Assembly (NCBI GenBank): GCA_022340425.1
Contig: JAJDNY010000028.1
Span: 1-34,724, forward strand
From: Desulfobacteraceae bacterium
Lineage (GTDB): Bacteria; Desulfobacterota; Desulfobacteria; Desulfobacterales; JAABRJ01
Reading direction: 5' to 3'
DNA: 34,724 nt
Position numbers and translations under genes: made by a program
The notes under the pieces: model-generated
Databases searched by the model: none
Told to the model about the DNA's origin: nothing
Seen by the model: the letters and a program-made list of their open reading frames with translations, nothing else
Shown: piece after piece, positions 11,873 through 34,434 of the stretch
Position numbering within the stretch: position 1 is the stretch's first letter
Layout: each line of letters starts with the position of its first letter

Positions 11873-13459
11873 ATGCCATCCCCGCCCCCTGCCCCCATGG
11901 ACTGGCGGCTCCTCCTGGTCGACGACGAGGAGGGCATCCGCAAGGTCATGCGCATCAGCCTGGAAGATGCCGGCTACCGGGTTGCAACCGCAGCCGACGG
12001 CGCCGGCGGCCTGTCGCGCTGTGAAAGCTTCGACCCCCAGATCCTGATCACCGATATCCGCATGCCCGGCATGGACGGCCTGGAGCTGCTGGCGGCCGTC
12101 AAAAAACGGTGGCCGGGGATCGAGGTCATCGTGATGACCGCCTTCGGCGAAATGAATCTCGCCATTCGCGCCCTGCAGCTGGATGCCTCCGATTTTATCA
12201 CCAAGCCGCTGCATGACGAGGCCCTCTTTCTGGCGCTCAAGCGGGCGCGCGACCGCTTCCGGGTCCGTCAGCAGGTCCGGGACTACACCACCCTGCTGGA
12301 GGCGGGCTGGGCCCGAACCGCCCGGGAGCTGATGGACACCTTCGCCTTTCAGCGCAACCTGATCGACGGCTCCCTGGACGGCATCCTGGGCTGCGGCCGG
12401 GATGACACGGTGGTGATCTTCAACCGCAGCATGGAGAAAATACTCGGCCACTCCCGGGCCCAGGTGGTCGGTCAGATGACCCTGGCAGACCTGCTGCGCC
12501 CCGGGGAGAACGCGCGTTTCAGAAGTGCGCTGGCATCGGAAAAGTGGGGCGGCCGGGAGCGCCTGGCGCTTTTTGAAACAACCCTGATGGCCAAAGACGG
12601 CCAGGAAATCCCGGTTCAGGTCTCGGCCGCGGTCCTGCCCCAACCGGGCAAGCTGGGCGGCCTGGTCTGCTTTTTCCGGGACCTGCGCGAAGTCCGGCGC
12701 CTGGAACAGGAGGTGGCCGACCAGGCCCGCATCCTGCACCAGGATAAAATGATGTCCCTGGGGCGCTTGGCCGCCAGCGTGGTCCACGAGATCAACAATC
12801 CCCTGGCCGGCATTCTCAATTACACCCGCCTGATGCTGCGGGTCCTCAAACGCGGGCCGCTGGAGCCGGCCCGTCAGGCGGATTTCAGCCGCTACCTGGC
12901 GCTGGTGGAAACCGAAACCGACCGTTGCGCCCGGATTGTCGCCAGCCTGCTGGCCTTTTCGCGCAAATCACCACCGGCCATGACCGAGGTCTCGCTGCGC
13001 GAGCTTCTCAACCGCTGCGCCCTGATGAGCCGCCACAAGCTGGAGTTGCAGAACATCGAGCTTGAACTCCTGATCAGCGAAGATCTCCCGCCGGTCCGGG
13101 GGGACGCCAACCAGTTGCAGCAGTGCATCATCAACCTGATCTTCAATGCCATTGACGCCATGCCCCAAGGCGGCCGCCTGCGGCTGGAGGCCCAGCGCAG
13201 CCCTGGCGGCAACGAGGTGACCATCACCGTCACGGACTCCGGAGCGGGGATCCCGGCCGCCGATCTGCCCCATATCTTCGAACCTTTTTTCACCACCAAG
13301 GCCGAAGGCTACGGCGTGGGGCTGGGTCTTTCCACGGTTTTCGGCATCATGCAGCGCCACAAGGGCGCGGTCACGGCCAAAAACGTCGCGGGTAAGGGAG
13401 CGGCCTTCACCCTGCATCTGCCCCTGGCCCCCGCCGGCGCATCGCCTCGAGAAGCCTGA
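11873..13459 (+). CDS. Hybrid histidine kinase, receiver-PAS-HisKA-HATPase
   Basis: A 528-residue soluble signalling protein with no membrane span. The receiver is at about 10-130, with Asp17/Asp18, phosphoacceptor Asp61 (ILITDIRMPGMDG), Thr89 and Lys111. A PAS domain lies at about 160-275 (IDGSLDGILGCGRDDTVVIFN). The dimerisation helix carries His305 in SVVHEINNP. The ATPase domain has N- and G-boxes (IINLIFNAIDAM, VTDSGAGIP, GVGLGLSTVFGI). The N-terminal receiver may accept phosphate from elsewhere and tune the kinase. It is a close relative in architecture and receiver sequence of the kinase at 24250-25821, so the pair brackets the hdr operon. It starts 28 bases after nrdG, with AGGA very close to ATG 11873. 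Confidence 0.92.
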   Translation: MPSPPPAPMDWRLLLVDDEEGIRKVMRISLEDAGYRVATAADGAGGLSRCESFDPQILITDIRMPGMDGLELLAAVKKRWPGIEVIVMTAFGEMNLAIRALQLDASDFITKPLHDEALFLALKRARDRFRVRQQVRDYTTLLEAGWARTARELMDTFAFQRNLIDGSLDGILGCGRDDTVVIFNRSMEKILGHSRAQVVGQMTLADLLRPGENARFRSALASEKWGGRERLALFETTLMAKDGQEIPVQVSAAVLPQPGKLGGLVCFFRDLREVRRLEQEVADQARILHQDKMMSLGRLAASVVHEINNPLAGILNYTRLMLRVLKRGPLEPARQADFSRYLALVETETDRCARIVASLLAFSRKSPPAMTEVSLRELLNRCALMSRHKLELQNIELELLISEDLPPVRGDANQLQQCIINLIFNAIDAMPQGGRLRLEAQRSPGGNEVTITVTDSGAGIPAADLPHIFEPFFTTKAEGYGVGLGLSTVFGIMQRHKGAVTAKNVAGKGAAFTLHLPLAPAGASPREA

Positions 13460-13678: not shown

Positions 13679-13734
13679 GTGGTTAACTGGACGATGCCCG
13701 TGTACCCCGCGAACGTTTGCCCCAGGAGCCCATC

Positions 13735-14151
13735 GTGAGCCAGAAGACCGGCGCTAAAAAGATCCTGATCGTCGACGACGAAGCCGACATGGTCACCTTC
13801 ATGGCCACCTTGCTGGCGGCCAACGGCTACAGCCCGATCGTCGCCCGCAACCCGGCCGAAGGCATGGCCAAGGCCCTGGCGCTCACGCCTGACTGCATCA
13901 TCCTCAACGCCATGATGACCGGGGACGGCGGCATCACCCTCTATGTCAACTTGAGATGCAACCAGCAGCTGCGGACCGTTCCGGTCATCATGCTGTCCGC
14001 CATCGGCAAAAAGATCTTTCTCTTCTACCCCGAAACCCAGACCACGACCGGCGGCCGGGAGCTGCGGGAGCCGGAGTGCTGCCTGGAAACCCCTCCTGAC
14101 GCCGAGGAACTGCTGCGCCAGGTGCAGAGGCTGTCCGCGCCGAGGTCCTAG
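13735..14151 (+). CDS. Degenerate receiver-domain protein, first gene of the hdr operon
   Basis: A 138-residue single-domain CheY-like protein. The N-terminal acidic pair Asp14/Asp15 is intact (ILIVDDEAD). The phosphoacceptor position reads CIILNAMM, placing Asn58 where Asp is expected, and the conserved Lys near the end is lost in CCLETPPDAEEL. An insertion-like segment (about residues 96-116) lies before the last helix. It is therefore unlikely to be phosphorylated normally and may act as a constitutive or docking form. GTG 13735 is chosen because CAGGAG stands 6 bases before it; an in-frame TTG at 13717 lacks this. It lies 31 bases ahead of the HdrA-GltD gene and probably binds a kinase or an Hdr subunit. 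Confidence 0.85.
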   Translation: MSQKTGAKKILIVDDEADMVTFMATLLAANGYSPIVARNPAEGMAKALALTPDCIILNAMMTGDGGITLYVNLRCNQQLRTVPVIMLSAIGKKIFLFYPETQTTTGGRELREPECCLETPPDAEELLRQVQRLSAPRS

Positions 14152-17593: not shown

Positions 17594-17649
17594 CCCGCGA
17601 TCCGGGCTTGTCTGCCGATACCCGCCACCCCTCGCTACTGGAGGCAACC

Positions 17650-18072: not shown

Positions 18073-18123
18073 GTGTACCCCTGCAAACGGGGGCCATCCG
18101 ATTGGGCCCCTGCGGAGGACCCC

Positions 18124-19260
18124 ATGGCGCGCATGCTGAAAATCGACGTGACCGCCGGTGACATCCTGCCGGCGCTGCAGGCCTTCTTGAAATCGGTGCT
18201 GGCCCAGGAGGAGATCAGCGCCCTGCTGGTTCCGCTGCACCTGCCGGCGAAAGCGCGGGTGATGCCGACCCTGGTGTCGGATCCCGCCAGGCTTGACGCA
18301 GCCGACCCGCTGGCGCCGGCCTTTCCCTTGAACGCCGCGCGCCTGGCGGCGCGCCTGACCCGCCGCGGCGCCGGCGGCCGGATCGCGGCGGTCCTGCGGC
18401 CGTGCGAAATCCGCGCCCTGGTCGAACTGGTCAAGCTCAAACAGGCCAGCACCGAGGACCTTATTTTGATCGGGATCGACTGCCTGGGCGCCTTCACCAA
18501 CCGCGACTACACCCGCTATGCGGCGAAAACCGGCGCCGAGGCCACGGCCGCGTTTTACCGCGCCATCCTGGCCGATGGAAGGCCGCCGGAGGCGTTCGAG
18601 CTGGCGCCGGCCTGCCGGGTCTGCGAACACCCCGTAGCCGAAGGGGCCGACATCTTAATCGGGCTTTACGGCGCCGCCCCCGGGGGGCCGCTGTGGGCCG
18701 AGGCCCGGACCCCCCAGGGGGAGGCGTTCCTGGAGCAGCTCGGGGCGGGGTCCACGGAGGCCCCCGCCGGACGCTCGGCGGCGGTTGCCGCCCTCGTCGC
18801 CGAGCGCAGCGCGCGCCGGGACGCGATGTTCGCCGCCACCCGGGAGCAAACCGGCAGCCTGGAGAAACTCAGCGCCTATCTGGCCGCCTGCATCAACTGC
18901 TACAACTGCCGGGTGGCCTGCCCGGTCTGCTACTGCCGGGAGTGCGTTTTCGTCACCGACGTCTTCGACCACGAACCGTTCCAGTATCTCAAGTGGGCCC
19001 ATCGCAAGGGGGCCGTCAAGATGCCCACCGACACGATTTTCTTTCACCTGACGCGGCTAGCCCACATCAGCACATCCTGCGTGGGCTGCGGCCAGTGCTC
19101 CAACGCCTGCCCCAACGAGATCGCCGTCATGGAGCTCTTTCGCAGCGTTTCCCACCGCACCCAGGCGGCGTTCGAGTACGAAGCCGGCCGCAGCCTGGAC
19201 GAACCGCTTCCGCTGGCGGTCTTCAAAGAGGATGAATTCGGGGAGGTCACCGGCCTGTAA
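18124..19260 (+). CDS. FrhB/FdhB-like iron-sulfur flavoprotein
   Basis: A 378-residue protein with the C-terminal FrhB/FdhB domain of coenzyme F420 hydrogenase or dehydrogenase beta subunits. AAVLRPCEIRALVELVKLKQ (88-107) and LILIGIDCLGAF (113-124) are the hallmark segments. Two cysteine clusters follow: CINCYNCRVACPVCYC (256-271), and the ferredoxin motif CVGCGQCSNACP (319-330). In methanogens the family binds FAD and exchanges hydride with F420. In Desulfobacterota its electron partner is unclear and may be ferredoxin or formate-derived electrons. GGAGG stands 5 bases before ATG 18124. Its place between mvhD and the second hdrA gene argues it is part of the same complex. Confidence 0.87.
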   Translation: MARMLKIDVTAGDILPALQAFLKSVLAQEEISALLVPLHLPAKARVMPTLVSDPARLDAADPLAPAFPLNAARLAARLTRRGAGGRIAAVLRPCEIRALVELVKLKQASTEDLILIGIDCLGAFTNRDYTRYAAKTGAEATAAFYRAILADGRPPEAFELAPACRVCEHPVAEGADILIGLYGAAPGGPLWAEARTPQGEAFLEQLGAGSTEAPAGRSAAVAALVAERSARRDAMFAATREQTGSLEKLSAYLAACINCYNCRVACPVCYCRECVFVTDVFDHEPFQYLKWAHRKGAVKMPTDTIFFHLTRLAHISTSCVGCGQCSNACPNEIAVMELFRSVSHRTQAAFEYEAGRSLDEPLPLAVFKEDEFGEVTGL

Positions 19261-19326: not shown

Positions 19327-22300
19327 ATGAAACGAAAAATCGGCAGCGCAATGGTCGTCGGCGCCGGGATCGCCGGCATCCGGGCAGCCCTGGATCTGGC
19401 CGAAACCGGCTACGGCGTCACCCTGATCGACCGCGCAGGGCATATCGGCGGGATTCTCAGTCAATTGGACTACCAGTTCCCCAGCAATGGCTGCGGCATG
19501 TGCAAGATGCTGCCGCTGGTGGCGCGCGACGCCGGCTCCCAGTACTGTTTGCGCAAGGGGCTTTTCCACGAGAATATCGAGATCCTGCTGGCCACCGAGA
19601 TCGCCGCGATCTCGGGCGAGGCCGGCCATTTCGAGGTGACCCTGCGGCAGACGCCAAACCCGGTGGACCCGGAGCGCTGCATCGGCTGCGGGGCCTGCAC
19701 GGCCGTCTGCCCGGTGTCGGTGCCCGATGAATTCAACGCCGGGCTCAGCTTGCGCAAGGCCATCTACCTGCCCGTGCCACATGCCGTCCCCAACCCCTTC
19801 AGGATCGATACGGCGGCCTGCACCGGCTGCGGCGCGTGTGTCGCGGCCTGCCCCACCGGTGCCATCCAGCTGGGTGACAAGGGACGGGAACGCTTCCGGG
19901 TGCTGGTGGTGGATGACGAACTGATCGTGCGGGATTCCATCCACGCCTGGCTGACCGACGAGGGCTACACGGTGGAGATGGCCGCCGGCGGCCAGGAGGC
20001 CTTGGAGCGGCTGAGCCGGGAGCGGTTCCAGCTGATGCTGCTGGATATCAAGATGCCCGGCATGGATGGGGTCGAAGTCCTGCAAAAAGCCCGGGAAATT
20101 CAGCCGGACCTGTGCGTGGTGATGATGACCGCCTATGCCACGGTTGAAACAGCCATCGAGGCCATGAAGGCCGGCGCGCGCGAATACCTGCTCAAGCCCT
20201 TCGATCCCGACACCCTCAGCGATCAGGTGGGGCGCATTCACCATCAAAGCGAGCTGGCCGAAGCGCGGCGAATGGAGACCGGCGCACTGATCCTCTGCGG
20301 GGGGACCGATTACTTCGACCCGTCGGAGGGCAAAAACCCCTTTGCCTACCGGCAAAACCCCCATGTGCTGACCAGCCTGGAATTCGAACGGATCTTAAGC
20401 GGCACCGGCCCCAGCGGCGGGCGGCTGGTGCGCCCGGTAGACGGCAAAACGATCACCAAGATCGCTTGGATCCAGTGCGTCGGCTCCCGCGATCTTCAAA
20501 GCGGAGCGGACTTCTGCTCCACCGTCTGCTGCATGTATGCCATCAAGGAGGCCCTCCTGGCCCGTGAAAAAGCCGCCGCCATAAACACGACGATCTTCTA
20601 CATGGACTTGCGCACCCCCGGAAAGTCATTCCAGCGCTACCGCGACCGGGCCGAGCGGGAAGCGGGCGTGCGGTTTGAGCGGGGCCGGATCCACTCCGTG
20701 ATCCCCGACCCGGACAGCGGCGACCCCGTACTGGCCTACGTTTCCCTGGAGGGCGAACGCCGCCAGGAGCGCTTTGACCTGGTGGTGCTCTCCGTCGGCC
20801 AGCGGCCGGCGGCCGGTGCGGCCCAACTGGCCGAAATCGCCGGGATCGAACTGAACCCCTGGGGGTTTGCCCGCAGCGCCCCGTTTTCCCTGACCAGAAG
20901 CAGCCGCGAGGGCATTTTCCTGGGGGGCGCCTTTGCCGGCCTGGAGGACATCTCCGAAGCGGTCATCCGGGCCAGTTCGGCCGCCTTGAGCGCCTCGCGG
21001 GTGCTCCACGCCGGCGGCGGCAGCCTGGGCGCGGCCCCATCGCCGGCGCCGACCTTTCGGGACGTCAGCCGCGAGGCGCCACGGGTCGGGGTGGTTTGCT
21101 GCACCTGCGGCGGGGCCCTGCCGCTGACCGAAGACCTGTCCGCCCGCCTGCAGCAGGACCCCGCGGTGGCCTGGGTCGCCGCCCTGGAAAACACCTGCAC
21201 CGCCCAGGGCTGGAGCGCCCTAATGGACCTGGTGAAGGCCCGGAACGCCAACCGTCTGGTGCTTGCCGCCTGCCAGCCCTACAGTTACGCCCGCAAACTG
21301 GGTGAACTGGCCGCGGCCGTCGGGCTGGAACCGGCCCTGATGACGGTGGTGGACATCCGCAGCCTCCTGCCCGCCGGCGCCGCCACCGGCCCGGCACCCG
21401 CGGAGCTGGCGCGGGTCGTGGCGATGGGGGTTGCCGCGCTGAAAACCGTGGCGCCGGGGCCGGTAGCCAGCATCGCAGTGGTCCAGGAGGCGCTGGTGGT
21501 GGGCGGCGGAATCGCCGGCATGACCGCGGCCCTGGGAATCGCCGACCATGGCTATGCGGTAAACCTGGTGGAGCAGGCCGAGAACCTGGGCGGCAACCTG
21601 AACTGGCTGGTCTCCACCTTGGACGACCAAGACCCCAGGGCCCTGCTGGGCGAGACCGTCGCCCGGGTGCAAAACCACCCCCGCATCACGGTCCACACCG
21701 GCAGCCGGGTGGCCGGGGGTTACGGCGAGGTCGGCCATTTTTTGACCACCATCACGGGACCCGAAGGGCGGACCATCACCCTGGAGCACGGGGCGGCGAT
21801 TCTGGCCACCGGCGGCAGCGAGGCGCCCACCACGGCCTACGGCCACGGGGAAAACGCCGCCGTGACGACCTTGAAGGGGATGGAAATCGGTCTGGCCAGC
21901 GGAACCATCGATCCTGCCGGCCTGACGGCCGTCGTCATGATCCAGTGTGTGGAGTGCCGCGAGGAACCCCGCAACTACTGCAGCCGGGTCTGCTGCCCCT
22001 CAGCCCTCAAACACGCTCTCGGGCTCAAAAAACGCAACCCGGATATCGGGGTCTACGTTTTGTACCGGGACCTGATGAGCTGCGGCTTCAGCGAAACCTA
22101 CTACACCCGGGCGCGTCAGGCCGGAATCCTGTTTTTTCCTTACAGCCTGGAGCGTAAGCCCGAGGTGACCATCGACGCCCAAGGCCGGCCGCTGGTGACG
22201 GCCTTCGAACCGCTGGTCGAGCGTGAGGTCGCCATTTCCGCCGATCTCGTGGTGTTGGCCACCGGCATCGTGCCCCATCTGCCGGCAGCGCTGGTGGACG

Positions 22301-22740
22301 CATTCGGCGTCACCCGCGACCGGGACGGATTTTTCCAGGAGGCGGAATCCAAGTGGCGGCCGGTGGATGCCATCAAGGAAGGGGTCTTCGCCTGCGGTCT
22401 GGTGCGCGCACCCCACGGTATCCCGCAATCGATTGCCGAGGCCGAGGCCGCAGCCCAGCGGACCCTGCGCATACTGGGGCGCGAGCGCCTGCCGGCGGCC
22501 AAGGTGGTGGCCGAGGTGCGCCACAGCCTCTGCAGCCGCTGTGAACGCTGCCTGGACGCCTGCCCCTACGGCGCCCGGCACCGCAACCCGGAACTGGACA
22601 GAATCGAGGTCAACCCGGCCATGTGCCAGGGCTGCGGGGCCTGCGCCGCGGTCTGCCCCAACAGCGCAGCGATTGTGGCGGGCTTTACGGACACCCGGAT
22701 GATGGCGGTGATCGACGCCGCACTGGAGGGGGTGTCGTGA
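19327..22740 (+). CDS. Tandem HdrA flavoprotein with an embedded receiver domain
   Basis: A 1137-residue cytoplasmic protein made of two HdrA cores in one chain. First core: FAD motif VVGAGIAGIRAALDLAETG (10-28), CGMCKMLP (56-63), and two ferredoxin motifs CIGCGACTAVC and CTGCGACVAAC (118-128, 165-175). A complete CheY-like receiver follows at about 190-305, then the core resumes with ILCGGTDYFDP, CVGSRD and CSTVCCMYAIK. Second core: CCTCGG near 591, FAD motif VVGGGIAGMTAALGIADHG (724-742), CSRVCCPSALK, and a C-terminal two-cluster ferredoxin (1069-1110). Receiver key residues are Asp196/Asp197, phosphoacceptor Asp240, Thr268 and Lys290, all canonical and NtrC-like. HdrA carries the bifurcating FAD in known complexes. 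Phospho-control of it is inferred, not shown. AGAGG precedes ATG 19327. Confidence 0.95.
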   Translation: MKRKIGSAMVVGAGIAGIRAALDLAETGYGVTLIDRAGHIGGILSQLDYQFPSNGCGMCKMLPLVARDAGSQYCLRKGLFHENIEILLATEIAAISGEAGHFEVTLRQTPNPVDPERCIGCGACTAVCPVSVPDEFNAGLSLRKAIYLPVPHAVPNPFRIDTAACTGCGACVAACPTGAIQLGDKGRERFRVLVVDDELIVRDSIHAWLTDEGYTVEMAAGGQEALERLSRERFQLMLLDIKMPGMDGVEVLQKAREIQPDLCVVMMTAYATVETAIEAMKAGAREYLLKPFDPDTLSDQVGRIHHQSELAEARRMETGALILCGGTDYFDPSEGKNPFAYRQNPHVLTSLEFERILSGTGPSGGRLVRPVDGKTITKIAWIQCVGSRDLQSGADFCSTVCCMYAIKEALLAREKAAAINTTIFYMDLRTPGKSFQRYRDRAEREAGVRFERGRIHSVIPDPDSGDPVLAYVSLEGERRQERFDLVVLSVGQRPAAGAAQLAEIAGIELNPWGFARSAPFSLTRSSREGIFLGGAFAGLEDISEAVIRASSAALSASRVLHAGGGSLGAAPSPAPTFRDVSREAPRVGVVCCTCGGALPLTEDLSARLQQDPAVAWVAALENTCTAQGWSALMDLVKARNANRLVLAACQPYSYARKLGELAAAVGLEPALMTVVDIRSLLPAGAATGPAPAELARVVAMGVAALKTVAPGPVASIAVVQEALVVGGGIAGMTAALGIADHGYAVNLVEQAENLGGNLNWLVSTLDDQDPRALLGETVARVQNHPRITVHTGSRVAGGYGEVGHFLTTITGPEGRTITLEHGAAILATGGSEAPTTAYGHGENAAVTTLKGMEIGLASGTIDPAGLTAVVMIQCVECREEPRNYCSRVCCPSALKHALGLKKRNPDIGVYVLYRDLMSCGFSETYYTRARQAGILFFPYSLERKPEVTIDAQGRPLVTAFEPLVEREVAISADLVVLATGIVPHLPAALVDAFGVTRDRDGFFQEAESKWRPVDAIKEGVFACGLVRAPHGIPQSIAEAEAAAQRTLRILGRERLPAAKVVAEVRHSLCSRCERCLDACPYGARHRNPELDRIEVNPAMCQGCGACAAVCPNSAAIVAGFTDTRMMAVIDAALEGVS

Positions 22741-22801: not shown

Positions 22802-23377
22802 ATGAAAGTCAGCGCCAGCGCAAACCCTCCGGCTGCAGACGCCGGTGACGACGACTTGCTGAGGGAGATTCGCGCCATGGTCAGCGCCTGCATTCAATGC
22901 GGCACCTGCAGCGGCTCGTGCCCCAACGCGCATGCCATGGACTACACCCCCCGCCAGCTCTGGCGCATGGTGCAGATGGGGGAGCAGGACCGCATCTTTG
23001 AGAGCAAAACCTTCGCCCTCTGCTCGGCCTGCTACACCTGCAGCCTGCGCTGCCCCCGGGGTCTGCCGCTGACCGACGCCATGGCGGCCCTCAAACAGGC
23101 CGCGGCCCGTGCGGACGTCCCGGCTTTCCGGCCGAGCGCCCGATTCTACGGCAGCTTTCTGGAAAGCGTGCGCCGCCACGGGCGGGTGCGCGAGAGCGAA
23201 TTCATGACGCTCTATTTCCTGGCCATGAAAAACCCGCTGCTGCCGATGAAGTTTGCACCGCTGGGTCTCAAGCTGATGGGCAAGGGCAAGCTGCAGATGG
23301 CCCTGCCGACCGGAGCCGGCCGGGGGACCCTGGATGCCATCTTTGAAAAAGTCGCTGAACTGGAGGGGCGCTCATGA
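22802..23377 (+). CDS. hdrC: Heterodisulfide reductase-like subunit C
   Basis: This 191-residue iron-sulfur protein links HdrA to HdrB. Two [4Fe-4S] motifs are visible: CIQCGTCSGSC (Cys30, 33, 36, 40) and CSACYTCSLRC (Cys74, 77, 80, 84), each followed by Pro as usual. The region between them (YTPRQLWRMVQMGEQDRI) matches HdrC. The C-terminal helical part includes a mildly hydrophobic stretch but no clear membrane span, so the protein is cytoplasmic. ATG 22802 has AAGGAG 5 bases upstream. The end overlaps the hdrB start by 4 bases (ATGA), which predicts coupled, equimolar synthesis. Confidence 0.95.
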   Translation: MKVSASANPPAADAGDDDLLREIRAMVSACIQCGTCSGSCPNAHAMDYTPRQLWRMVQMGEQDRIFESKTFALCSACYTCSLRCPRGLPLTDAMAALKQAAARADVPAFRPSARFYGSFLESVRRHGRVRESEFMTLYFLAMKNPLLPMKFAPLGLKLMGKGKLQMALPTGAGRGTLDAIFEKVAELEGRS

Positions 23378-24243
23378 AGTATCTCTACTACCCGGGGTGT
23401 TCTCTGGAGGCCAGCGCCGGCGAGTACGACCGTTCCAGCCGCGCCCTGTTGACCGCCATGGGGGCCGAGATAACGGAGCTCGAGGATTGGAGCTGCTGCG
23501 GTGCCAGCGCCGCCGAGGCCCAAAGCCGGCTGCTGGCCCTGGCCCTACCCGCGCGCAACCTCGCCATCGCCGAAAAGATGGGGGGTACCCACGACCTGGT
23601 GGTGCCTTGCAGCGCCTGCTACCTGAACCTCAGGAAGGTTGCGGAAAAAATCGGGCGGGAACCGGAGCTGCTGATGGCCCTCAATACGGTCCTGAGCGCC
23701 GATGGGCTGCACCTCAGCGGCGGGGTGCGGGTGCGGCACCTGCTGGACGTGCTGGCCAACGACCTGGGGGCGCAAGCGCTGGGCGCCAAGATCGCACGCC
23801 CGCTGAAGGGGCTGACGATCGCGCCCTACTACGGGTGCCAGTGTCTGCGGCCCTACAGGGTATTTGACGACCCCGAAGCGCCCCGGACCATGTCCCCCCT
23901 GATCACGGCCGCAGGGGCCGCCGTGCACCCCTGGCAGATGGGGGCGCGCTGCTGCAGCGCCTCGCTGATGACCACCAAACCGGAGGTGGGGCTGCCCCTG
24001 GTGGCCAGCATTCTCAAGGCCGCGCACGGTGCGGACGCCATTGCAACCGTCTGCCCCATGTGCCAGATGAACCTCGAGGCTTTTCAGTCCAAGGCCTCTC
24101 GTTTTGCCGCCGAGGACCTCGCCATTTCCGTGCTCTACCTGCCCCAGCTGCTGGGCCTGGCCATGGGCCTTTCGGAGTCGGAGCTCGGGCTGGGGTTCAA
24201 CCTGGCGCTGACGCCGGGGTTCAGGGAAAAGCTGGCCGCCTGA
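23374..24243 (+). CDS. hdrB: Heterodisulfide reductase-like subunit B
   Basis: This 289-residue catalytic-type subunit has two CCG domains. The first has Cys9, Cys41-Cys42 (SCCGAS), Cys79 and Cys82 (CSACYLN). The second has Cys155, Cys193-Cys194 (RCCSAS), Cys227 and Cys230 (CPMCQMN). In methanogens these domains hold two noncubane [4Fe-4S] clusters that split CoM-S-S-CoB. Sulfate reducers lack those cofactors, and DsrC-type trisulfide or another disulfide is the usual proposal. The second motif reads CCS rather than CCG, a small departure. It starts inside the end of hdrC and is the last gene of the operon, 6 bases from the end of the convergent kinase gene. Confidence 0.95.
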   Translation: MKYLYYPGCSLEASAGEYDRSSRALLTAMGAEITELEDWSCCGASAAEAQSRLLALALPARNLAIAEKMGGTHDLVVPCSACYLNLRKVAEKIGREPELLMALNTVLSADGLHLSGGVRVRHLLDVLANDLGAQALGAKIARPLKGLTIAPYYGCQCLRPYRVFDDPEAPRTMSPLITAAGAAVHPWQMGARCCSASLMTTKPEVGLPLVASILKAAHGADAIATVCPMCQMNLEAFQSKASRFAAEDLAISVLYLPQLLGLAMGLSESELGLGFNLALTPGFREKLAA

Positions 24244-24249
24244 CGGCGC

Positions 24250-25821
24250 TCAAGCCTCCTGATCCCGGGGGCTCTTTTCGGCGGCCTCTCCCGATCCGCC
24301 GCCGACGGCGGGCAGACGCACCGAGAAACAGGCGCCTTGCCCCGGTTCGGAGGCCACCGTGATCTCGCCCCCGTGCTGGCGGACGATTTTAGCGGCCACA
24401 AAAAGCCCCAGACCGGTCCCTTTGTCGGCTTTGGAGGAAGCGAAGAGGGTGAAAATTCCGGCCCGGGTTTCGGCATCCATCCCGATGCCGTTGTCCTCGA
24501 CTTCGAACACAACCTGCTGCGACTCCCGGCGGATCCGGAAGGCCACCCGGTGCTCGCTTTTCTGGCGGTCCTCGAGGCAGGCGTCCACGGCATTTTCAAG
24601 GATATTGACCAAAGCGGCCTGGATCTGGCCGGCATCCAGCTCAAAGCGCCCCAACCCGGGCGCGAACTCCTGCTCGAAGCGGATGCCGTGGCGCTTCATT
24701 TTGGGGGCGATCACGCCGGCTACCTCCTCGCCAAATGCCGCCAGATCGACCGCCGTCCGCACCACCTCCCGTTCCTTGGCCTGGTAGAGAATGTCCAGGA
24801 CCATCCCCCGGATGCGCCCCACCATGAGTTTGACCACCTCCCAGCCCTCCTGGACCTGGGCCTGGTCCTCGCGCGCGAAACCGGCATCGATGAGGTACAT
24901 CCCGCCGTCCAGCCCCGTCAGCAGCCCCTTGATGGCATGGGAGACGGAACCGATCATCAACCCCAACGAGGCGAGGTGGTCCTGCAGCCGTTGCAGCTGG
25001 GTGATGTTGGTGGCCATCACCAGCACGTGGGTGATCTCCCCCAGGGAATCGCGCACGGGGGTGGTCCACACCAGGGTGTTGAAGGGCTCGCCGGTCTCGG
25101 TTTTGAAAACCATTTCGGTTTGCTGGGGGCAGCCGCTTTGGAAAGTTTTTTCGACCGGGCAGTCCTCGCAGGGCGAAGCGGCCTGCTTGCAGAGTTCGTA
25201 GCAGCAGGCGGCGCCCGGCTCCCCGAAATCCTGCCTGAAGAGCTTGTTGGCGGCCGTGAGGCGGTAGCGGCGGTCCCGCACGGCGATATAGCACGGCATA
25301 TCGTCGAAGAGTTTCTGGTAGCGGGAAGACTCCGCCGGCTCCTGCGCACCGGCAGCGGTTGCCGCCGCAGGGGTTGCCACCGCCTGGAGCCGGGAGGCCT
25401 TTTCGTGCACCAGGGATTCCAGGTTTTCGGTGTACTCTTTTAGTTTGCGGCGAATGAGAATATTTTCGCGGGCCTTCTGGAGGGACTTTTCCAGGGCCTC
25501 GTCGCTGATCGGCTTGGTGACGAAATCGGTGGCGTCGTATTGCAGGCTCTTGATGGCGAGGTCCATGTCGCCGTGGCCGGTGATCATGATGACCTCGGTT
25601 TCAGGGTTGCGCTGCTTGAGGCGGCGCAGCAGGCTGATGCCGTCCATGCCGGGCATTTTGATGTCGGTGAGCACGATTTCGGGCTGCTCACGGTCGAAAA
25701 CACCCAAGGCCTCCTGCCCGTTTTCAGCGGTCAAAACGGTGTAGCCGCTGTCTTCCAGAGCAATACCGAGGACTTTGCGAATCCCTTCCTCGTCGTCTAC
25801 CAGGAGCAGTTTGGGTTTCAT
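24250..25821 (-). CDS. Hybrid histidine kinase, receiver - Cys-rich PAS - kinase
   Basis: A 523-residue soluble kinase. The receiver at 1-122 has Asp9/Asp10, Asp53 (IVLTDIKMPGMDG), Thr81 and Lys103. A coiled linker leads to a PAS domain (about 165-275) with clustered cysteines: Cys206, 207 and 211, then CEDCPVEKTF at 218-227, then Cys231. Such cysteines could bind metal or an iron-sulfur cluster or sense redox; this is inferred. His295 sits in SVSHAIKG, an atypical H-box. ATPase motifs are VNILENAVDAC, VEDNGIGMD and GTGLGLFVAAKI. It belongs with the tmc operon strand, after the lone receiver, and is the architectural twin of the kinase at 11873-13459. The ribosome site before ATG 25821 is weak. 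Confidence 0.91.
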   Translation of the reverse strand: MKPKLLLVDDEEGIRKVLGIALEDSGYTVLTAENGQEALGVFDREQPEIVLTDIKMPGMDGISLLRRLKQRNPETEVIMITGHGDMDLAIKSLQYDATDFVTKPISDEALEKSLQKARENILIRRKLKEYTENLESLVHEKASRLQAVATPAAATAAGAQEPAESSRYQKLFDDMPCYIAVRDRRYRLTAANKLFRQDFGEPGAACCYELCKQAASPCEDCPVEKTFQSGCPQQTEMVFKTETGEPFNTLVWTTPVRDSLGEITHVLVMATNITQLQRLQDHLASLGLMIGSVSHAIKGLLTGLDGGMYLIDAGFAREDQAQVQEGWEVVKLMVGRIRGMVLDILYQAKEREVVRTAVDLAAFGEEVAGVIAPKMKRHGIRFEQEFAPGLGRFELDAGQIQAALVNILENAVDACLEDRQKSEHRVAFRIRRESQQVVFEVEDNGIGMDAETRAGIFTLFASSKADKGTGLGLFVAAKIVRQHGGEITVASEPGQGACFSVRLPAVGGGSGEAAEKSPRDQEA

Positions 25822-25840: not shown

Positions 25841-26200
25841 TCAATCCGGCAGCCCGATGGCGCGCTGAACGGTCAGCAGCAGCTTGTCGGCGTCAAACGG
25901 CTTGCTGAGGTAGGCCACGGCCTTCTTGATGGCGTGGCGCCCGGCCATCCCGCTGATCACGATCACGGGAATGTCCTGCAGTTCGGGGTCCTTGGTCATC
26001 CGGCGGTAGAAGTGCGGGCCCCACTCTTCGGGCATTTCCAGGTCCAGGGTGATCAGGTCGGGTTTCTCGCGCTTGACCACATCCAGCGCCGCCACACCGG
26101 AGTTGGCGCTGCAGGTGGTGTAGCCGTTGTCTTCCAGCAGCGCGGTGAGGTATTTGACGATAATGGGGTCGTCATCGATGATCAGGATTTTCTTTGCCAT
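25841..26200 (-). CDS. Stand-alone receiver-domain response regulator
   Basis: A 119-residue CheY-like protein consisting only of the receiver. Asp9/Asp10 (ILIIDDDP), phosphoacceptor Asp in LITLDLEMP, Ser in VIVISGM and Lys in YLSKPFD are all present, so it should be phosphorylated normally. There is no output domain, so it must act by binding another protein or as a phosphotransfer intermediate. It lies between tmcA and the Cys-PAS kinase (19 bases upstream of the latter), which is its likely partner. AGAGG precedes ATG 26200. Confidence 0.92.
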   Translation of the reverse strand: MAKKILIIDDDPIIVKYLTALLEDNGYTTCSANSGVAALDVVKREKPDLITLDLEMPEEWGPHFYRRMTKDPELQDIPVIVISGMAGRHAIKKAVAYLSKPFDADKLLLTVQRAIGLPD

Positions 26201-26744: not shown

Positions 26745-28079
26745 CTATTCGGGTTTTTCCATGGTTTCGTAGATCAGGTCCCCGAGAAATTTAAGCTCCA
26801 ACCCCAGTTGATTGACATGGATGATATCCTCCAACCCGCCGTGGCAGTTGTGGCAGGGGGCGATCACCGTCTTGACGCCCTTGGTCTTGACCCGAAAGAG
26901 CTGCTCGGCCTTGACGCGGTTGCCGGTAACGCGCTTGTTCTTGAACGGTGGACCGGTGTTGATCACCCCACCACCGGCACTGCAGCAGTAGTTGTGCTCC
27001 CGGTTGGGGTGCATTTCGACGACCTTCTCGCAGAGGGCGTCGGCCACGTAGCGCAGCATTTCGTGCAAACCCCGGCCACGGACCACGTTGCAGGGGTCGT
27101 GGATGGTGACCGGGGTCGGGTACTTCTTGGCGATCCGGATGCGCCCCGACTTGAGCAGTTCGTAATAGAACTCGATGGCGTGGACCACCGGGATCGGCGG
27201 CATCCGCCACCCCAGGGCGCGGTTGCCCATGTCGTAAACCGAGCGGAAGGCGTGGCCGCACTCGCCCATCACGATCCGCTTGACCTTAAGCCGCATGGCG
27301 GTTTCGAAATGGGCGCGCTTCAGGCGGGCCATCATCTCGTTGTCGCCGGAGTACATGCACATGTCGCTGTTGTCCCAGCCGGGGGTGGCCGGCATGGTCC
27401 AGTTCACCCCGGCCGTGTTCATGATCACCGCCGCCTGGTAGATCAGCTGGGCGCGGAATTTGGGCTCCGGGCCGATGACCGAGTAAAACACATCGGCCCC
27501 TTCCTTCTCCAGCGGAATCCGGAGCTTCGGAATCTCCTCCTGGGCCTCTTCCTCCTGCCACTGGAGGCTGTCGATCCATTCGTCTTCCTTGACCCACATC
27601 TGGTTCAGGGTGGCCGAGTGGCTGTGGGCGGTATCCTGGAGGTACTGCGGGGTGGTGCCCAGCAGGTGACAGATGCGCCGCATGACGAGCATCAGGTAGG
27701 CCACGTCGATCCCGAAGGGACAGTACATGGCACAGCGCCGGCACAGGTTGCACTCGGTGTGGGCGATCTCACAGGCTTTTTCGATGAAGGCCGGCGACAC
27801 GCGCCCCTTGTGTTTGACGATTTCCCCGAGGGTCTGCTTCACCTTGGCGGCCGGCGCAAAGGCGGGGTCGTTGTCGTTGGAGAGGTAGAAATGACAGGCC
27901 TCGCTGCACAGGCCGCAGTGGACACAGGTCTCCAGATAGGCTTTCAGGCGCGCGCCGGTCTCGTTCTTGAGAAACTGCCGGATCACAACCTCGATGCGCT
28001 CGGGGGTCAGCTTGGCCGCCCCTTGTGCGATCCCCATGTCGTGAATTTTGGGTTTGTCTTGAGTTGCAGGCGCAACCAT
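26745..28079 (-). CDS. tmcB: TmcB, HdrD-like iron-sulfur subunit
   Basis: A 444-residue cytoplasmic-facing subunit. Two [4Fe-4S] motifs, CVHCGLCSEAC (52-62) and CNLCRRCAMYC (110-120), are followed by two CCG-type domains. MGECGHAFRSVYD and HDPCNVVRGRG belong to them, as do YCCSAGGGVINT and APCHNCHGGLEDI. This is the HdrD/GlpC/DsrK-like plan. In the Tmc complex it is thought to pass electrons between the membrane cytochrome and a cytoplasmic thiol/disulfide or other acceptor. GGAGG lies 7 bases before ATG 28079. It sits between tmcC and tmcA in the usual order. Confidence 0.94.
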   Translation of the reverse strand: MVAPATQDKPKIHDMGIAQGAAKLTPERIEVVIRQFLKNETGARLKAYLETCVHCGLCSEACHFYLSNDNDPAFAPAAKVKQTLGEIVKHKGRVSPAFIEKACEIAHTECNLCRRCAMYCPFGIDVAYLMLVMRRICHLLGTTPQYLQDTAHSHSATLNQMWVKEDEWIDSLQWQEEEAQEEIPKLRIPLEKEGADVFYSVIGPEPKFRAQLIYQAAVIMNTAGVNWTMPATPGWDNSDMCMYSGDNEMMARLKRAHFETAMRLKVKRIVMGECGHAFRSVYDMGNRALGWRMPPIPVVHAIEFYYELLKSGRIRIAKKYPTPVTIHDPCNVVRGRGLHEMLRYVADALCEKVVEMHPNREHNYCCSAGGGVINTGPPFKNKRVTGNRVKAEQLFRVKTKGVKTVIAPCHNCHGGLEDIIHVNQLGLELKFLGDLIYETMEKPE

Positions 28080-28886: not shown

Positions 28887-30155
28887 CTACGCATCCAGCG
28901 CAACCACCTCGCGGTAATAGCGGCCGCTTTCAGCCCCGCTGCCAACCCCCCGAATCAACAGCCGCTTTCCGTCCGGGCTGAAGGCGGGGCTCCAGAGGGC
29001 TTCGAAATCGCTTCGCAGCACCTGGCCGTCCAGCAGTAGGCGGTAACCCCCGTTTTTTTCCACCTTGGCGGCGACGTGCCGGCCATCCGGGCTGAAAACC
29101 GGCTGCCAGGCCATGTCGTGGTCGCCGTCCCAGGCGCGGCCGTCCACCACGATGGTCCAGCGGTCCTTCTCTTTGGCAACGCAGGCGATATGCCCCCCCT
29201 GGGGGCTAAAGACCGCCTCGGAGACCAGCCCGTCGAAGGTTCGCGACCAGGGGCGGTCGTCCACCGCAATGGTCCACTTGCCGAACCTGGGAGCTACGAT
29301 CGCCGCAAGCTGCCGACCGTCGGGGCTGTAGGTCTGGTGCCAGAGCTGCACATAGTCGCCGCTCCAGAGGCGCTCGCCGTCACGGGCCAGGGTCCAGCTG
29401 CCACCGATTTTGACCGGCGCGCAGACCGTGCCGTCCTGGGGGTGAAAGCGCGGCTCCCAGACGGCGTTGAAGCGCTGCCCCCAGGTGGCGCCGTCCACGG
29501 CGATGGTATAGTCGTAAAGGGTTGTTCGCACCTCGGCGGCCACATGCCCGCCGTCGGAGCTGAAATCCAATCCCCAGACATTCACGAAATTCCGCTCCCA
29601 GGGCTTCCCGTCCACCGCCACCGTGTAACAGCCTTCTTGAAACTTGAAGATTTCCCCCTCGTTGAAGGCGACGGTCTGCACCACCGCGGCGGCCCGGCGG
29701 CCGTCCGAGCTCAGGCGCAGATTATTCAACGCTCCGAAGGCGCTTTCCCAGGGAACACCGTCCAGCACGGCGAAATATTTCATCGCCTTCTGGGCGGCGG
29801 CGGCCACATGTCCACCGACGGCACCGAAGAGGGGGTTCCAGAGGTAGTCGAAGCGCTCCTCCCACGTCTCGCCGTCCAGCGCCAGGGTCCACTCGCCGCC
29901 GTCCGAGACGATGGCCGAGACGCGGCCATCGGGGGTGAAGCGCAAAAACCAGATCTTGTCGAAGGTGTTCTCCCAGGCGTCGCCGTTGACGCAGACCGAA
30001 AAACTGCCCTCCTCGGTCTTCACCACGGCGGCAATCTGCTCGCCGTCGGGGCTGACGTAGGGCTCTTCCACCCACGGGTGGATCTCCCCCCACCGCCCCG
30101 GATCCGCAACGAGTCTCCTTCCGATCTCCCAGTCCCAGCTGTTTGAACCGCCCAT
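28887..30155 (-). CDS. tmcD: TmcD, WD40-like repeat subunit of the Tmc complex
   Basis: A 422-residue protein without a signal peptide or membrane span, built of about nine repeats of roughly 42-47 residues. Each repeat has a VDG-x-x-W turn, an aromatic position about 10 residues later, then SPDG-x-x-x-AA-x-V. Examples are VDGKPWERNF with FSSDGGHVAAEV, and VDGRAWDGDH with FSPDGRHVAAKV. This predicts a beta-propeller on the cytoplasmic side. TmcD is a known but functionally unexplained Tmc subunit; scaffolding or partner docking is likely. AGGAG stands close before ATG 30155. It is the first tmc gene, 181 bases after the sigma-54 activator gene. Confidence 0.9.
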   Translation of the reverse strand: MGGSNSWDWEIGRRLVADPGRWGEIHPWVEEPYVSPDGEQIAAVVKTEEGSFSVCVNGDAWENTFDKIWFLRFTPDGRVSAIVSDGGEWTLALDGETWEERFDYLWNPLFGAVGGHVAAAAQKAMKYFAVLDGVPWESAFGALNNLRLSSDGRRAAAVVQTVAFNEGEIFKFQEGCYTVAVDGKPWERNFVNVWGLDFSSDGGHVAAEVRTTLYDYTIAVDGATWGQRFNAVWEPRFHPQDGTVCAPVKIGGSWTLARDGERLWSGDYVQLWHQTYSPDGRQLAAIVAPRFGKWTIAVDDRPWSRTFDGLVSEAVFSPQGGHIACVAKEKDRWTIVVDGRAWDGDHDMAWQPVFSPDGRHVAAKVEKNGGYRLLLDGQVLRSDFEALWSPAFSPDGKRLLIRGVGSGAESGRYYREVVALDA

Positions 30156-30336: not shown

Positions 30337-32073
30337 TCACAGATCGATTCCGTAGCGCTTCATCTTGCGCCACAGGGTGGTGCGGTTGATTTTCAAAGCC
30401 CGGGCGGTCTTGCCGCGTTTGCCCCCGTGGGCCTGCAGCAGCTGCAGGATCCGATCGCGTTCCGGACGGCCACCCCCCGCCGCCTGCGGGCGATGCTCCG
30501 GAGATGTCTGGGGCGGGGCGCCGGGGCCGTTTTTCAGCAAAAAAACCGGCAGGTGGCGCCACTCGATGACCTTTCCCTGACAGATGATCAGGGCATGCTC
30601 GAGAATGTTTTCCAGCTCCCGGACGTTGCCGGGGTAGTCATGGTTGAGCAGCACTTCCATGGCCCGCTGGGAGATGCGCTCGACCTGGGTGGTGCGGGTG
30701 GCGCAGAGGCGTTTGAGCACATGGGCGATCAAGAGGGGCAGGTCCCCCTGGCGGTCCTTGAGCGGTGGCAGCTCCAGGCGCATGACGTTCAGACGGTAGA
30801 AAAGATCCTCACGAAAACGCTTCTGGTGAACCAGCTTTTCCAACCCCAGGTTGCTGGCCGAGATGATGCGCACGTCGACCTTGGTGGTACGCCGGCTGCC
30901 CAGCGGGTAGAACTCCTTGTCCTCCAATACCCGCAGCATTTTGGCCTGCAGCGAAAGGGGCAGGTCGCCAATTTCGTCCAGAAAGATGGTCCCGCCGTCG
31001 GCCTCCTGGAAGCGGCCCGGCTTGTTCTGATCCGCTCCGGTGAAGGCCCCCTTGACATAGCCGAAAAACTCCGATTCCAGAAGGGTGTCCGGCAGGGCGG
31101 CGCAGTTGACCTTCACCAGCGGCTTGCGGGCCCGGGGGCTGGCGTTGTGAACGATCTTGGCAAGCAGGTCCTTGCCGGTGCCGGTGGGCCCCTCGATCAG
31201 GATAGTGGCCTGGCTGGCGGCAATCACCGGCACGATCTCGAATATTTTCTGCATCACCGGGTCCTTGCCCACCATGTCATAAAAGGTGTAGCGCTCCTGG
31301 ATGGCGCTGTCGAACTGGTATTTCAGCGAAAGGTCCGTGAGGGTCGCCAGGCCCCCCACCGTGACGCCTTTTTCGTTTTTGAGGGCCATGCAATTGACCC
31401 GCACGGGCAGGGGCTGCCCCTGCCGGGTGACCACCCGCGTTTCGATACCCGACGGACCCCGACCGCTCTCGGCGCCCGCCCGGTTGGCGCGCATCTCGCG
31501 GCACAGATCACGGCCGAAAACAGCGCTGCAGGGCCTGCCCAGCAGACTTTTGCGGCTGTAGCCGGTGATGCGCTCGGCCATGGTGTTGAAGAAGGTGATG
31601 TGGCCGCCGCGATCCACGGTCAGGACCCCGATGTCCAGGTTGTCCAGTATGATCTTGAGCCTCAGGTCGTCATAGCGGATCCGCCGGATCAGGGACTTGA
31701 AGACCGTGTGGTCCTGGAACACCTGGATGCAGCCCGCCGGCCTCTGATCCGGACCGTAGAGCGGCGCCTCGATCCGGGTGATGCTGTGCTCGCCGCTGGT
31801 GACATCGGTGATTTCGATTTCCGCACACGCCTCGGTTCCGCCCGGCGGGGTTTGCAGCCCGTCCACATAGCGGCAGCTGCCCCCGCAGAGGTAGTCGCGG
31901 AACACCTCGTAGCAGAATTTGCCGACCACATCGGCGGCTTTGCGATCGGTGAGCTGCTCGGCCGAGCGGTTGATGCCCAAGATGCGCCGGTCCGGCGAAA
32001 GAACGATGCTTCCCAGCGCGAGGCAATCCAGGATTCCGCCCAACTGCTTGAAACCGATCAGGATGTTTTCCAT
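30337..32073 (-). CDS. Sigma-54-dependent activator with two PAS domains, no receiver
   Basis: A 578-residue transcription activator. PAS 1 (about 15-125) holds Cys54, Cys63 and Cys67, and PAS 2 is at about 140-250. The AAA+ domain (262-500) has Walker A GPTGTGKD at 295-302, the sigma-54 contact loop GAFTGA at 342-347 and Walker B GGTIFLDE at 360-367. A Fis-type helix-turn-helix is at about 553-574 (TARALKINRTTLWRKM). There is no receiver, so activity is set by the PAS ligand or redox state, or by protein contact. ATG 32073 shares its A with the TGA stop of the heme-c kinase (TGATG), so the two are translationally coupled. It is the best local candidate for the promoter at 13663-13678. Confidence 0.94.
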   Translation of the reverse strand: MENILIGFKQLGGILDCLALGSIVLSPDRRILGINRSAEQLTDRKAADVVGKFCYEVFRDYLCGGSCRYVDGLQTPPGGTEACAEIEITDVTSGEHSITRIEAPLYGPDQRPAGCIQVFQDHTVFKSLIRRIRYDDLRLKIILDNLDIGVLTVDRGGHITFFNTMAERITGYSRKSLLGRPCSAVFGRDLCREMRANRAGAESGRGPSGIETRVVTRQGQPLPVRVNCMALKNEKGVTVGGLATLTDLSLKYQFDSAIQERYTFYDMVGKDPVMQKIFEIVPVIAASQATILIEGPTGTGKDLLAKIVHNASPRARKPLVKVNCAALPDTLLESEFFGYVKGAFTGADQNKPGRFQEADGGTIFLDEIGDLPLSLQAKMLRVLEDKEFYPLGSRRTTKVDVRIISASNLGLEKLVHQKRFREDLFYRLNVMRLELPPLKDRQGDLPLLIAHVLKRLCATRTTQVERISQRAMEVLLNHDYPGNVRELENILEHALIICQGKVIEWRHLPVFLLKNGPGAPPQTSPEHRPQAAGGGRPERDRILQLLQAHGGKRGKTARALKINRTTLWRKMKRYGIDL

Positions 32074-34355
32074 CACGACCCACCAGCGGCCGGAAAGCTC
32101 AACCGGAAGCACGCCCCTTGGCCTTCTTCAGAGACCACCTGAATGTCGCCGCCGCAGTCCTTGACGATCCCATAGCTGATGGAAAGCCCCAGGCCGGTTC
32201 CCTTGCCAACCTCCTTGGTGGTGAAAAAGGGCTCGAAGATCCGGTCGCGCAAGGCCTCGGGAATCCCGCCGCCCGAATCCGACACCTCTGCAATCACCCG
32301 GCTGCCGACGGGATAGGTCCTGAGCGCGATCTGCTTGGCACCCGGGGGCGGCAGCGCCTCCCCCTGCCAGTGGTCCTCGATGGCGTCCCGGGCGTTAATC
32401 AGGAGATTGATGAAGACCTGCTCCAGGCGATCCGCATCGGCCATCACCAGCGGCAACTCGGGGTGGTAGTCGCGCGTCACCGCGATTGCGCGCACCTTGA
32501 GTTGCTGACTGAAAAACTCGAAGGCCTTGTCCAGCACCTGGTTGAGCTGCACCTGGCCCAAGTCCAGGTCCGACTGCCGGCCGAACTCGCGCATGTGGTT
32601 GATAATCTTGGTGGCGCGGTCGACGTGCCCGTCGATTTCACCGGTCAGGGTCAACAGGATCTCTTCCTTGATCGGCTCCCCGCGACTGGCCTTCTTTTTC
32701 AGGAAACTGCTGGCGGTCTTGATCACCGACAGGGGCTGGTTGAGCTCGTGGGCCACACCGGTGGCCATCTCCCCCAGGGTGGCCATCTTGCTGGCCTGGA
32801 TCAACTGCTGTTCGGCCAACAGCTGCTTGGTGATATCGCTGGTGGTCACCAGCAGGACTTTCCTGCCCTGAAACTCGGAGGGCGAGACGCGGATGTCCAC
32901 GAAGAGGCGCGCACCGTCGCGGTTGCGGTGCTTGACGCGGTTGATGGCCGCACTGGTCATGAGTTTGAAGGCGTAGTGGTCCCGATCCTCCTCCTCGGCA
33001 AAGATGTCCAGAAAAGGTTTGCCCAGGATGTCCGCCTGGGTGAAGCCGTAAACCCGCTCAACGCTCTGGTTGCAGTCCAGGACGTGGAGGGTGTCCACAT
33101 CCAGCACGAAAACCGGATTGGGAATGTTGGTGAAGATGGCCCGGTATTTCTGCTCGGACTTCTCCAGCTTTTCGGCCAGCAGCTTGCGCGGGGTGATATC
33201 CAGGCTCATCTCCATGGCGGCCACGATGTTGCCGCGGGCGTCAAAGACCGGCGTGGTCTTGTAAATCCAGTGGGAAACCGAGCCGTCCTTGTTGAGGCCC
33301 ATTTCCTCGCCGGAGTGGGACTGGCCGTCGGCAAAGGTCTTTTCCACCGGGCAATTGTCGCATTTTTGCCGCCGACTCTTGTAGGCCGAGTAGCAGAAAT
33401 CGCCCGGATTTGGCGCGAACTGGTTGGCAAACTGGCGATTGTACTGCAGCAGGCGGAACTCACGGTCCTGCACCGTGATCAGGCAGGGAACGGCCTCAAA
33501 GAGGTTCTGATATTCGTCGCGCTGCTGGTTGAGGGCTTCCTGATTGGCGGCGATCTCTTCCCCCATACGGTTGATGGCCCTGGCCAGCTGCCCCATCTCA
33601 TCCTCCTGGCGAATGTCCACCCGGCTCAAGTAGTCCCCATGGCCGATGCGCCGCGTGCCTTCGATGAGCTTGCGCACCGGCCGGTTGACGAAGGCCATCA
33701 CCAGCAGGAAAATACCGGTGGATGTCATCAGGAAAACCAGGCCGGCCAGCCCGATGATGCCCTTTTCGATCAGCAGCACCTGCCGGTCGGTTTCCTCGAG
33801 GGAGACCACCACGTCGAGGGCACCCAAAACCTTTTTGGACTTGGGGTGCACATGGCAGGGGTCGGCGGAGCAGCCGGGCTCGTTGAAAATCGGGCTGATG
33901 ATGCCCAGATGGCGGTAGCCGTCGTCAAGGGCGACGATCCGGATGCGCTCCTCGAGCCCCAATTTTTCCTGGGGCGGCTCGGTCCGGTGGCAGATGTGGC
34001 AGGCTTCGTCGCGAATGTTGGTGAAGCGGTCCACCTCGGAGCTGCGGTTGGAGTACTTGATCTGGCCGGCTTTGTTGTAGATCCGGACGGCGTCGAGGCC
34101 TTCCTGCCCGCCGATATTGGTGATGATCTGGTTGATGTCGTCGCGCGAGTTGAGCATCATGGCGTAGTGAGTGCCGAGACGGATGGTGGTGGTCAGGCGG
34201 TCGGCGCTGGCGACGACATCCGCCATGATTCTCTTTTGCTGGTAATCGATGGTAAAATAAGCCCAGGTGGCGATGGAAAAAAGCAGGGTCAAACCGACCG
34301 TCAAAATCAGCTTGGCAATCAGACTGTGACGCAGCCTGAGTAATTTTTTGAGCAT
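32073..34355 (-). CDS. Membrane histidine kinase with periplasmic c-type heme motif
   Basis: A 760-residue sensor. Membrane span 1 (about 12-34), periplasmic domain (35-195), span 2 (about 196-223) and HAMP (224-280) come first. PAS 1 (280-390) contains [10 protein letters not shown] at 332-341, and PAS 2 spans 400-510. HisKA has His536 in [10 protein letters not shown], and HATPase follows ([32 protein letters not shown]). The periplasmic domain has a c-type heme site CHICH (Cys119, Cys122, His123) and a second possible site CSADPCH (162-168), so it probably senses redox potential or a gas. ATG 34355, with GGGGGGTG 5 bases upstream, is chosen over an open extension to 34409. It ends in the overlapping start of the sigma-54 activator gene. 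Confidence 0.93.
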
Positions 34356-34405
34356 GTCTTCACCCCCCTGCAAATCATGCTCCCCGAAAGCAATCCTTAA
34401 TTTGA

Positions 34406-34434
34406 ACAATAACTTAAAATAATTTTGGGGTCAA
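34406..34434 (-). promoter_or_regulatory. Sigma-70-type promoter candidate for the heme-c kinase gene
   Basis: Read on the minus strand, TTGACC (34434-34429) and TATTGT (34411-34406) are separated by exactly 17 bases of AT-rich DNA. The expected leader to ATG 34355 is about 45 bases. A 12-base word CCTTAATTTGAA on the plus strand (34395-34406) touches the -10 and also occurs upstream of the hdr operon at 13532-13521 on the minus strand. It might be an operator. Confidence 0.5.

Follow-up and report, generated by a model that had tools for sequence, protein, structure and literature searches.

A receiver domain inside the HdrA flavoprotein of Desulfobacteraceae: a possible response regulator with an electron-transfer subunit as its output

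HdrA is an electron-transfer subunit of Hdr complexes, and receivers are the domains of two-component systems that are phosphorylated by histidine kinases, as a rule for the control of genes or motility. The gene at positions 19327–22740 of a 34,724-nucleotide stretch of DNA from a Desulfobacteraceae bacterium (contig JAJDNY010000028.1 of assembly GCA_022340425.1; the whole stretch is referred to here as the window) encodes both in one protein: an HdrA-type flavoprotein with a complete receiver inside it. The reading favoured here, which we hold to be moderately probable, is that this protein would act as a response regulator whose output is HdrA itself, phospho-switched by histidine kinases. 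Comparison of sequences shows that one Hdr lineage (gene order HdrL-MvhD-FrhB-HdrA-HdrC-HdrB) gained an NtrC-type receiver, apparently once, at the joint between the ferredoxin domain and the flavin adenine dinucleotide (FAD) domain.

The Pfam profile Response_reg (PF00072) matches HdrA residues 192–300 over profile positions 1–109 of 111 (E 3.7e-31), a full-length domain, with a score of 108 bits against a Pfam cut-off of 30.2. The acidic pair D196/D197, the phospho-acceptor D240, T268 and K290 (the DDDTK sites) are all present, as are Y287 and P291; because Asp240 is there, the domain does not fall among the aspartate-less receivers (ALRs). In an AlphaFold model of HdrA made with 28 sequences (mean predicted local distance difference test score 83), residues 188–312 take up a normal CheY-type fold, the best match being 3crn (Z 23.0, root-mean-square deviation 1.3 Å).

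The host protein is a tandem of two flavin units. In the first, a flavin fold carries both the ferredoxin insert and the receiver; the second comprises a stretch resembling the N-terminal domain, a flavin fold without an insert, and a C-terminal diferredoxin (Fer4 at residues 1062–1115, with C1069-C1110 invariant). The eight Cys of the inserted ferredoxin domain are invariant in 28 sequences; every Cys of the ferredoxin and CCG types is invariant too, as is the lysine that matches Lys409 of 5odc on the FAD side. The best NCBIfam profiles for the protein are all HdrA profiles, with scores below the HdrA2/HdrA equivalog cut-offs (658 of 1100, 490 of 1400 and 480 of 1300 bits); judged by its sequence, it is a divergent HdrA outside the methanogen-type equivalogs.

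Alignment to the HdrA of M. thermolithotrophicus (5odc) places residues 8–182 on 146–310 and residues 315–511 on 318–514, so that about 130 residues stand in place of a 7-residue linker of 5odc. The receiver is thus flanked on one side by the two-cluster ferredoxin insert and on the other by the strand that goes back to the FAD domain; in the model, three residues separate helix 5 of the receiver from that strand. The modelled HdrA core (residues 5–564) superposes on residues 151–576 of 8rwn (421 residues, 1.9 Å, 36% identity); this and the 5odc alignment identify an FAD (thioredoxin-reductase-like) domain with an inserted two-cluster ferredoxin domain, as in HdrA, and in the model the core is undisturbed by the insertion. 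A preliminary description of this DNA, made from the letters alone, had called the HdrA tandem and had put a complete receiver at about residues 190–305, after two ferredoxin motifs and before the rest of the flavin fold, with Asp196/197, Asp240, Thr268 and Lys290 kept; domain search, alignment and model bear out each of these points.

The architecture suggests how such a switch might work. Histidine kinases, in relatives mostly encoded directly behind hdrA or hdrCB, would phosphorylate Asp240, and this would reshape the alpha4-beta5-alpha5 face of the receiver. Helix 5 appears to pass almost linker-free into the FAD strand, and the receiver N-terminus to be attached at the second cluster motif; therefore, a shift would be expected in how the ferredoxin domain is positioned with respect to FAD, or in the position of a partner docked at this site. 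Electron flow through Hdr could in this way be raised, lowered or redirected within seconds, without transcription.

The fusion of HdrA with a receiver (threshold E 1e-90 or better) is present in 72 of the 194 genomes of the order, in 39 families. Wherever an intact locus in the order covers the sites, D196, D197, D240, T268 and K290 are kept; one further locus, which ends at a contig edge, covers and shows only D240, T268 and K290. Mean identities to the window protein are 65% (receiver), 69% (N-terminal part) and 54% (remainder), i.e., at the level of sequence the receiver is conserved about as well as the HdrA core, and its identity drops (to 27%) only in a lineage with degenerate receivers. 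To guard against search bias, operons were in addition located through FrhB, independently of the receiver query. Among those without a receiver match, the readable ones either had no receiver or were truncated at the end of a contig, apart from one intact fragment (L198), and degenerate receivers were found in none; for this reason the invariance of DDDTK is not merely an effect of the search. The preliminary description had named general loss of the Asp/Lys pair in homologues, and an assembly artefact, as observations that would speak against a phospho-switch. Neither was seen: the pair is kept as just described, and 72 genomes from independent assemblies, some of them complete in a single contig, share the same architecture and junction, which leaves an assembly or binning artefact with a negligible probability. 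At one locus (L142, in the near-complete genome G055) an in-frame TGA interrupts the HdrA-receiver gene at about residue 369, which is not the usual selenocysteine site.

The history of the domain was followed on an HdrA tree built on residues 318–1050 only, with the receiver columns excluded. The receiver-bearing HdrA proteins and that of L069 form one clade (SH-like approximate likelihood ratio test, SH-aLRT, 94), with receiver-less Hdr operons outside it. L069, from a Desulfobacterium sp., has an hdr operon without the receiver and pairs with the intact L187 (support 99). The HdrA proteins with degenerate receivers also form one clade (support 100), and its placement inside or beside the intact clade has a support of only 42 on this tree. 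Two changes account for the presence and absence of the receiver; together with the sites, the pattern reads as one gain, one deletion (in the L069 lineage) and one decay of the phosphosite. At the DDDTK sites, the degenerate receivers have SADTK (L061), DRGAK (L068) and AGDIT (L071); a phylum-wide search added two more, L202 and L203.

Receivers of the same kind occur in another host. In some relatives, proteins with a receiver between two universal-stress-protein (Usp) domains are encoded near the hdr cluster (L118:10848-12149, also L184, L189, L151 and L114). The receivers of these Usp proteins and those of HdrA form one clade (SH-aLRT 98), and the receivers of kinases and sigma-54 regulators lie outside it; it looks as though HdrA and the Usp proteins had each taken up one and the same cassette.

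Kinases in the neighbourhood were counted, as the preliminary description had proposed, at loci with at least 8.5 kilobases (kb) downstream of hdrA. A histidine kinase is encoded within these 8.5 kb in 41 of the 45 intact loci, on the same strand in 37, and 34 have two or more. Loci with no receiver or a degenerate one have a kinase in 0 of 9 cases (p 1.3e-7) and other HdrA loci in 5 of 18 (p 1.3e-6), both p values being uncorrected for shared descent. The linkage was seen at least once in 32 of 35 testable families, and often fewer than 100 base pairs separate the kinase gene from hdrA or hdrB. Among relatives of HK3, the membrane kinase of the window (Table 1), the hdr-linked ones mostly form one clade (26 of 37, SH-aLRT 90). 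Genome-wide, an HK3 is present in 60 of the 72 genomes with the fusion and in 31 of the 122 without it (Fisher p 1.6e-15, a value uncorrected for descent and not used here as proof); HK3 relatives were found in cases of receiver loss as well, and relatives of both HK3 and HK2 in several genomes without an intact receiver.

Table 1. Features of the window (positions are those of the whole stretch; HK, histidine kinase; aa, amino acids)
Feature	Position	Strand	Basis
HK1: hybrid kinase of receiver-PAS-HisKA-HATPase type, upstream of the hdr operon	11873..13459	+	Pfam
Stand-alone receiver, Asn at the phospho-Asp position, directly upstream of HdrL	13717..14151	+	Domain search, residue check
HdrL: HdrA/GltD-type fusion with pyridine-nucleotide binding unit, 1136 aa	14183..17593	+	Profiles; same position in relatives
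MvhD/FlpD subunit, 140 aa	17650..18072	+	FlpD E 4.2e-53
FrhB/FdhB-like iron-sulfur flavoprotein subunit; probably starts near 18124	18073..19260	+	FrhB_FdhB_C 2.1e-11, Fer4
HdrA-type tandem flavoprotein with internal receiver, 1137 aa	19327..22740	+	Single open frame, Pfam, NCBIfam, fit to experimental HdrA structures
Ferredoxin insert: two [4Fe-4S] motifs, C118/121/124/128 and C165/168/171/175, immediately ahead of the receiver	19678..19851	+	Fer4
Receiver (REC) domain, residues 190-305	19894..20241	+	Pfam E 3.7e-31, invariant residues, modelled fold
Strand 314-318, leading back into the FAD domain immediately behind helix 5 (294-310) of the receiver	20266..20280	+	Model secondary structure; alignment to 5odc 318 onward
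HdrC	22802..23377	+	CoB_CoM_SS_C 1.6e-23
HdrB, two CCG domains	23374..24243	+	Profiles
HK2: receiver-PAS-HATPase hybrid kinase; phospho-His in H-box SVSHAIKG	24250..25821	-	Pfam
Stand-alone intact CheY-like receiver, rival target for HK2/HK3	25841..26200	-	Domain search, residue check
DsrK/TmcB-like protein, Fer4 dicluster and CCG; kept beside other HK3-HK2 pairs	26745..28079	-	Pfam
PD40 beta-propeller-like protein, same module as the DsrK-like protein	28887..30155	-	Pfam
HK3: membrane kinase with periplasmic sensor (CxxCH and Cx4CH), HAMP, PAS, HisKA, HATPase; start probably 34355	32073..34409	-	Pfam

In the window itself, three kinases had been noticed from the outset, and all three are there (Table 1). 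HK1 lies on the hdr strand; the other two, HK2 and HK3, run towards the hdr operon from the opposite strand. Orthologs of HK1 (57–64% identity) are found at the loci of several relatives. In HK2, residues D9, D10, D53 and H295 are invariant among homologues. HK3 has, in 85% of its homologues (n=48), the periplasmic motifs CxxCH and Cx4CH, and in all of them four Cys before and in the cytosolic PAS domain; possibly, its sensor is a haem-c redox sensor of a kinase family that is widespread in the order. A tentative extension of the phospho-switch, and one that we regard as doubtful, is that such a membrane kinase would report the redox state of the periplasm, phosphorylate the receiver of HdrA and so set the splitting of electrons in the cytoplasm by a bifurcating Hdr complex. 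On no receiver of the window was a DNA-binding output found, as had been stated before; the two stand-alone receivers had been overlooked. The one upstream of HdrL has homologues, many of them upstream of HdrL as well, with N, D or other residues at the phospho-Asp position and a conserved PEP...E.PPE tail.

Several observations weigh against a kinase-operated HdrA. Five degenerate HdrA receivers keep the domain with the phosphosite lost, and a structural role is therefore possible; the two losses of the site amount to only two independent events; and kinase adjacency was counted across related genomes. For the window there is more. HK2 and HK3 belong to a module of PD40, DsrK-like, CheY-like, HK3 and HK2 genes (24250–34409), often accompanied by Usp proteins, which recurs in many genomes independently of HdrA, has its own CheY-like receiver, and is also present in genomes with no HdrA receiver or a degenerate one (L213, L214, L216, L218). 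In the HK3 tree, the HK3 of the window falls with the module-linked kinases and not with the hdr-linked ones; at the cut-off used it is the single HK3 of the genome, the hdr-linked paralog being missing. Given this grouping, the presence of the module elsewhere and the convergent orientation on the opposite strand, there is an even chance that in this genome HK2 and HK3 serve only the module, and that HK1 or an unlinked kinase acts on the HdrA receiver. On the other side, the module pair and the hdr-linked pair are homologues, and the former could have come to act on the substrate of the latter; HK1 orthologs are operon-linked in only some relatives. The cognate kinase in this genome may thus be HK1 or the module pair. 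The idea that the neighbouring kinases control HdrA therefore stands at the level of the family, where linkage, a mostly shared strand and a conserved phosphosite agree with it, and not for the convergent HK2 and HK3 of the window; it is the family, not the window, that argues for dedicated kinases. As for the putative electron bifurcation that the preliminary description expected to be gated, the cluster ligands and the lysine on the FAD side are conserved.

The receiver might instead be a docking or scaffold domain, dependent on phosphate or independent of it, which tethers HdrA to kinases or a partner, or sets assembly, and leaves catalysis unchanged. Receivers often work by dimerisation or docking, the same cassette stands between the two Usp domains of neighbouring proteins, and the lineage of L061, L068, L071, L202 and L203 has retained the domain after losing the site. 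However, a pure scaffold would not need a phosphosite that is invariant over the 39 families of the intact clade, and the degenerate lineage diverges fast throughout its receiver and has no adjacent kinase. We consider this account rather unlikely.

Information could also flow in reverse: HdrA would be a redox sensor for the ferredoxin/NAD(P)H pool, with its receiver serving as a phosphate sink, or as an input to a kinase network with outputs elsewhere (CheY-like, Usp-receiver or sigma-54 proteins). Both HK1 and HK2 are of the hybrid type, the window has an intact CheY-like receiver next to HK2, and Usp-receiver or sigma-54 proteins are encoded near the cluster in some relatives. In 18 of the 45 loci, another receiver lies inside the same 8.5 kb, and other kinase targets are hence possible. 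In the other 27, however, the stretch behind hdrA holds no receiver besides those of HdrA and the kinases, and the kinase genes then follow directly behind hdrA; a sink could still act in trans. Reverse flow is, in our estimate, unlikely.

The HdrA gene is followed by linked genes for HdrC and HdrB (22802–24243), as expected of an hdrA. A frame at 17577–18161 was rejected as a gene, since the real gene there encodes MvhD in another frame. The genome carries dsrA and is therefore capable of sulfite reduction. Its receiver-less HdrA paralogs (G000 contigs C148, C136, C36 and C81; L003, L007 and L008) showed an in-frame TGA in the search output, which is probably selenocysteine at an ATGU motif; the window HdrA has Thr or Gly there. 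In a zinc-ribbon protein at 2181–2843, Pfam gives a weak match (4e-5) to a receiver-like stretch that appears degenerate.

With the HdrA of methanogen HdrABC (5odc, 7bkb/7bkd, 8rvu/8rvy/8rwn), the window protein shares the ferredoxin insert, the FAD domain, the lysine matching Lys409 and the hdrC and hdrB genes that follow; it differs in its tandem flavin units, in the receiver that occupies the linker, and in missing the equivalog cut-off. To our knowledge, the partner disulfide CoM-S-S-CoB is not known in these bacteria. Response regulators with enzymes as outputs include CheB, PleD, RpfG and RsbU, in which the receivers are N-terminal and the targets are covalent-modification or second-messenger enzymes. 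A receiver that controls an enzyme would be common to these and to HdrA, whereas the HdrA receiver is internal to a multi-subunit electron-transfer flavoprotein. As a domain, it resembles receivers of the NtrC, FixJ and Spo0F type (full length, all conserved residues, 36–40% identity and 1.1–1.3 Å to solved ones), but it lacks a DNA-binding, AAA or other usual output and sits inside a redox enzyme with both ends tethered. ALRs (PMC4395418) are resembled by the degenerate receiver of L068 (Asp240 changed to Gly) and by the stand-alone receiver with Asn upstream of HdrL, whereas the window HdrA receiver and all other intact ones keep the phospho-Asp.

Locus VIII of Desulfobacterium autotrophicum HRM2 has been described as hdrL-fdhB-hdrA4-hdrC-hdrB, with HdrL a fusion of HdrA and glutamate synthase (PMC2702500). 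It has the gene order of the window, with HdrL, an FdhB-type subunit, HdrA and HdrC/HdrB orthologs; going by its own description, the text of that paper mentions no receiver in any HdrA and no MvhD for hdrA4. No description of a receiver or response regulator in HdrA was found in the open-access literature, a coverage that is incomplete and leaves most subscription papers outside. Thus, receivers and HdrA are each known, and what appears to be new among enzyme-output response regulators is a receiver inside an electron-transfer flavoprotein as the output.

If HdrA is indeed phospho-switched, an electron-transfer complex would join the outputs of two-component systems, and there would be a natural on/off handle on an Hdr-type enzyme. 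The gating of flavin-based electron flow by a conformational switch would become testable, with the receiver-less and degenerate versions as ready-made controls. Many sulfate reducers may then adjust this branch of their core energy metabolism, in either direction, through phosphorylation of HdrA itself.

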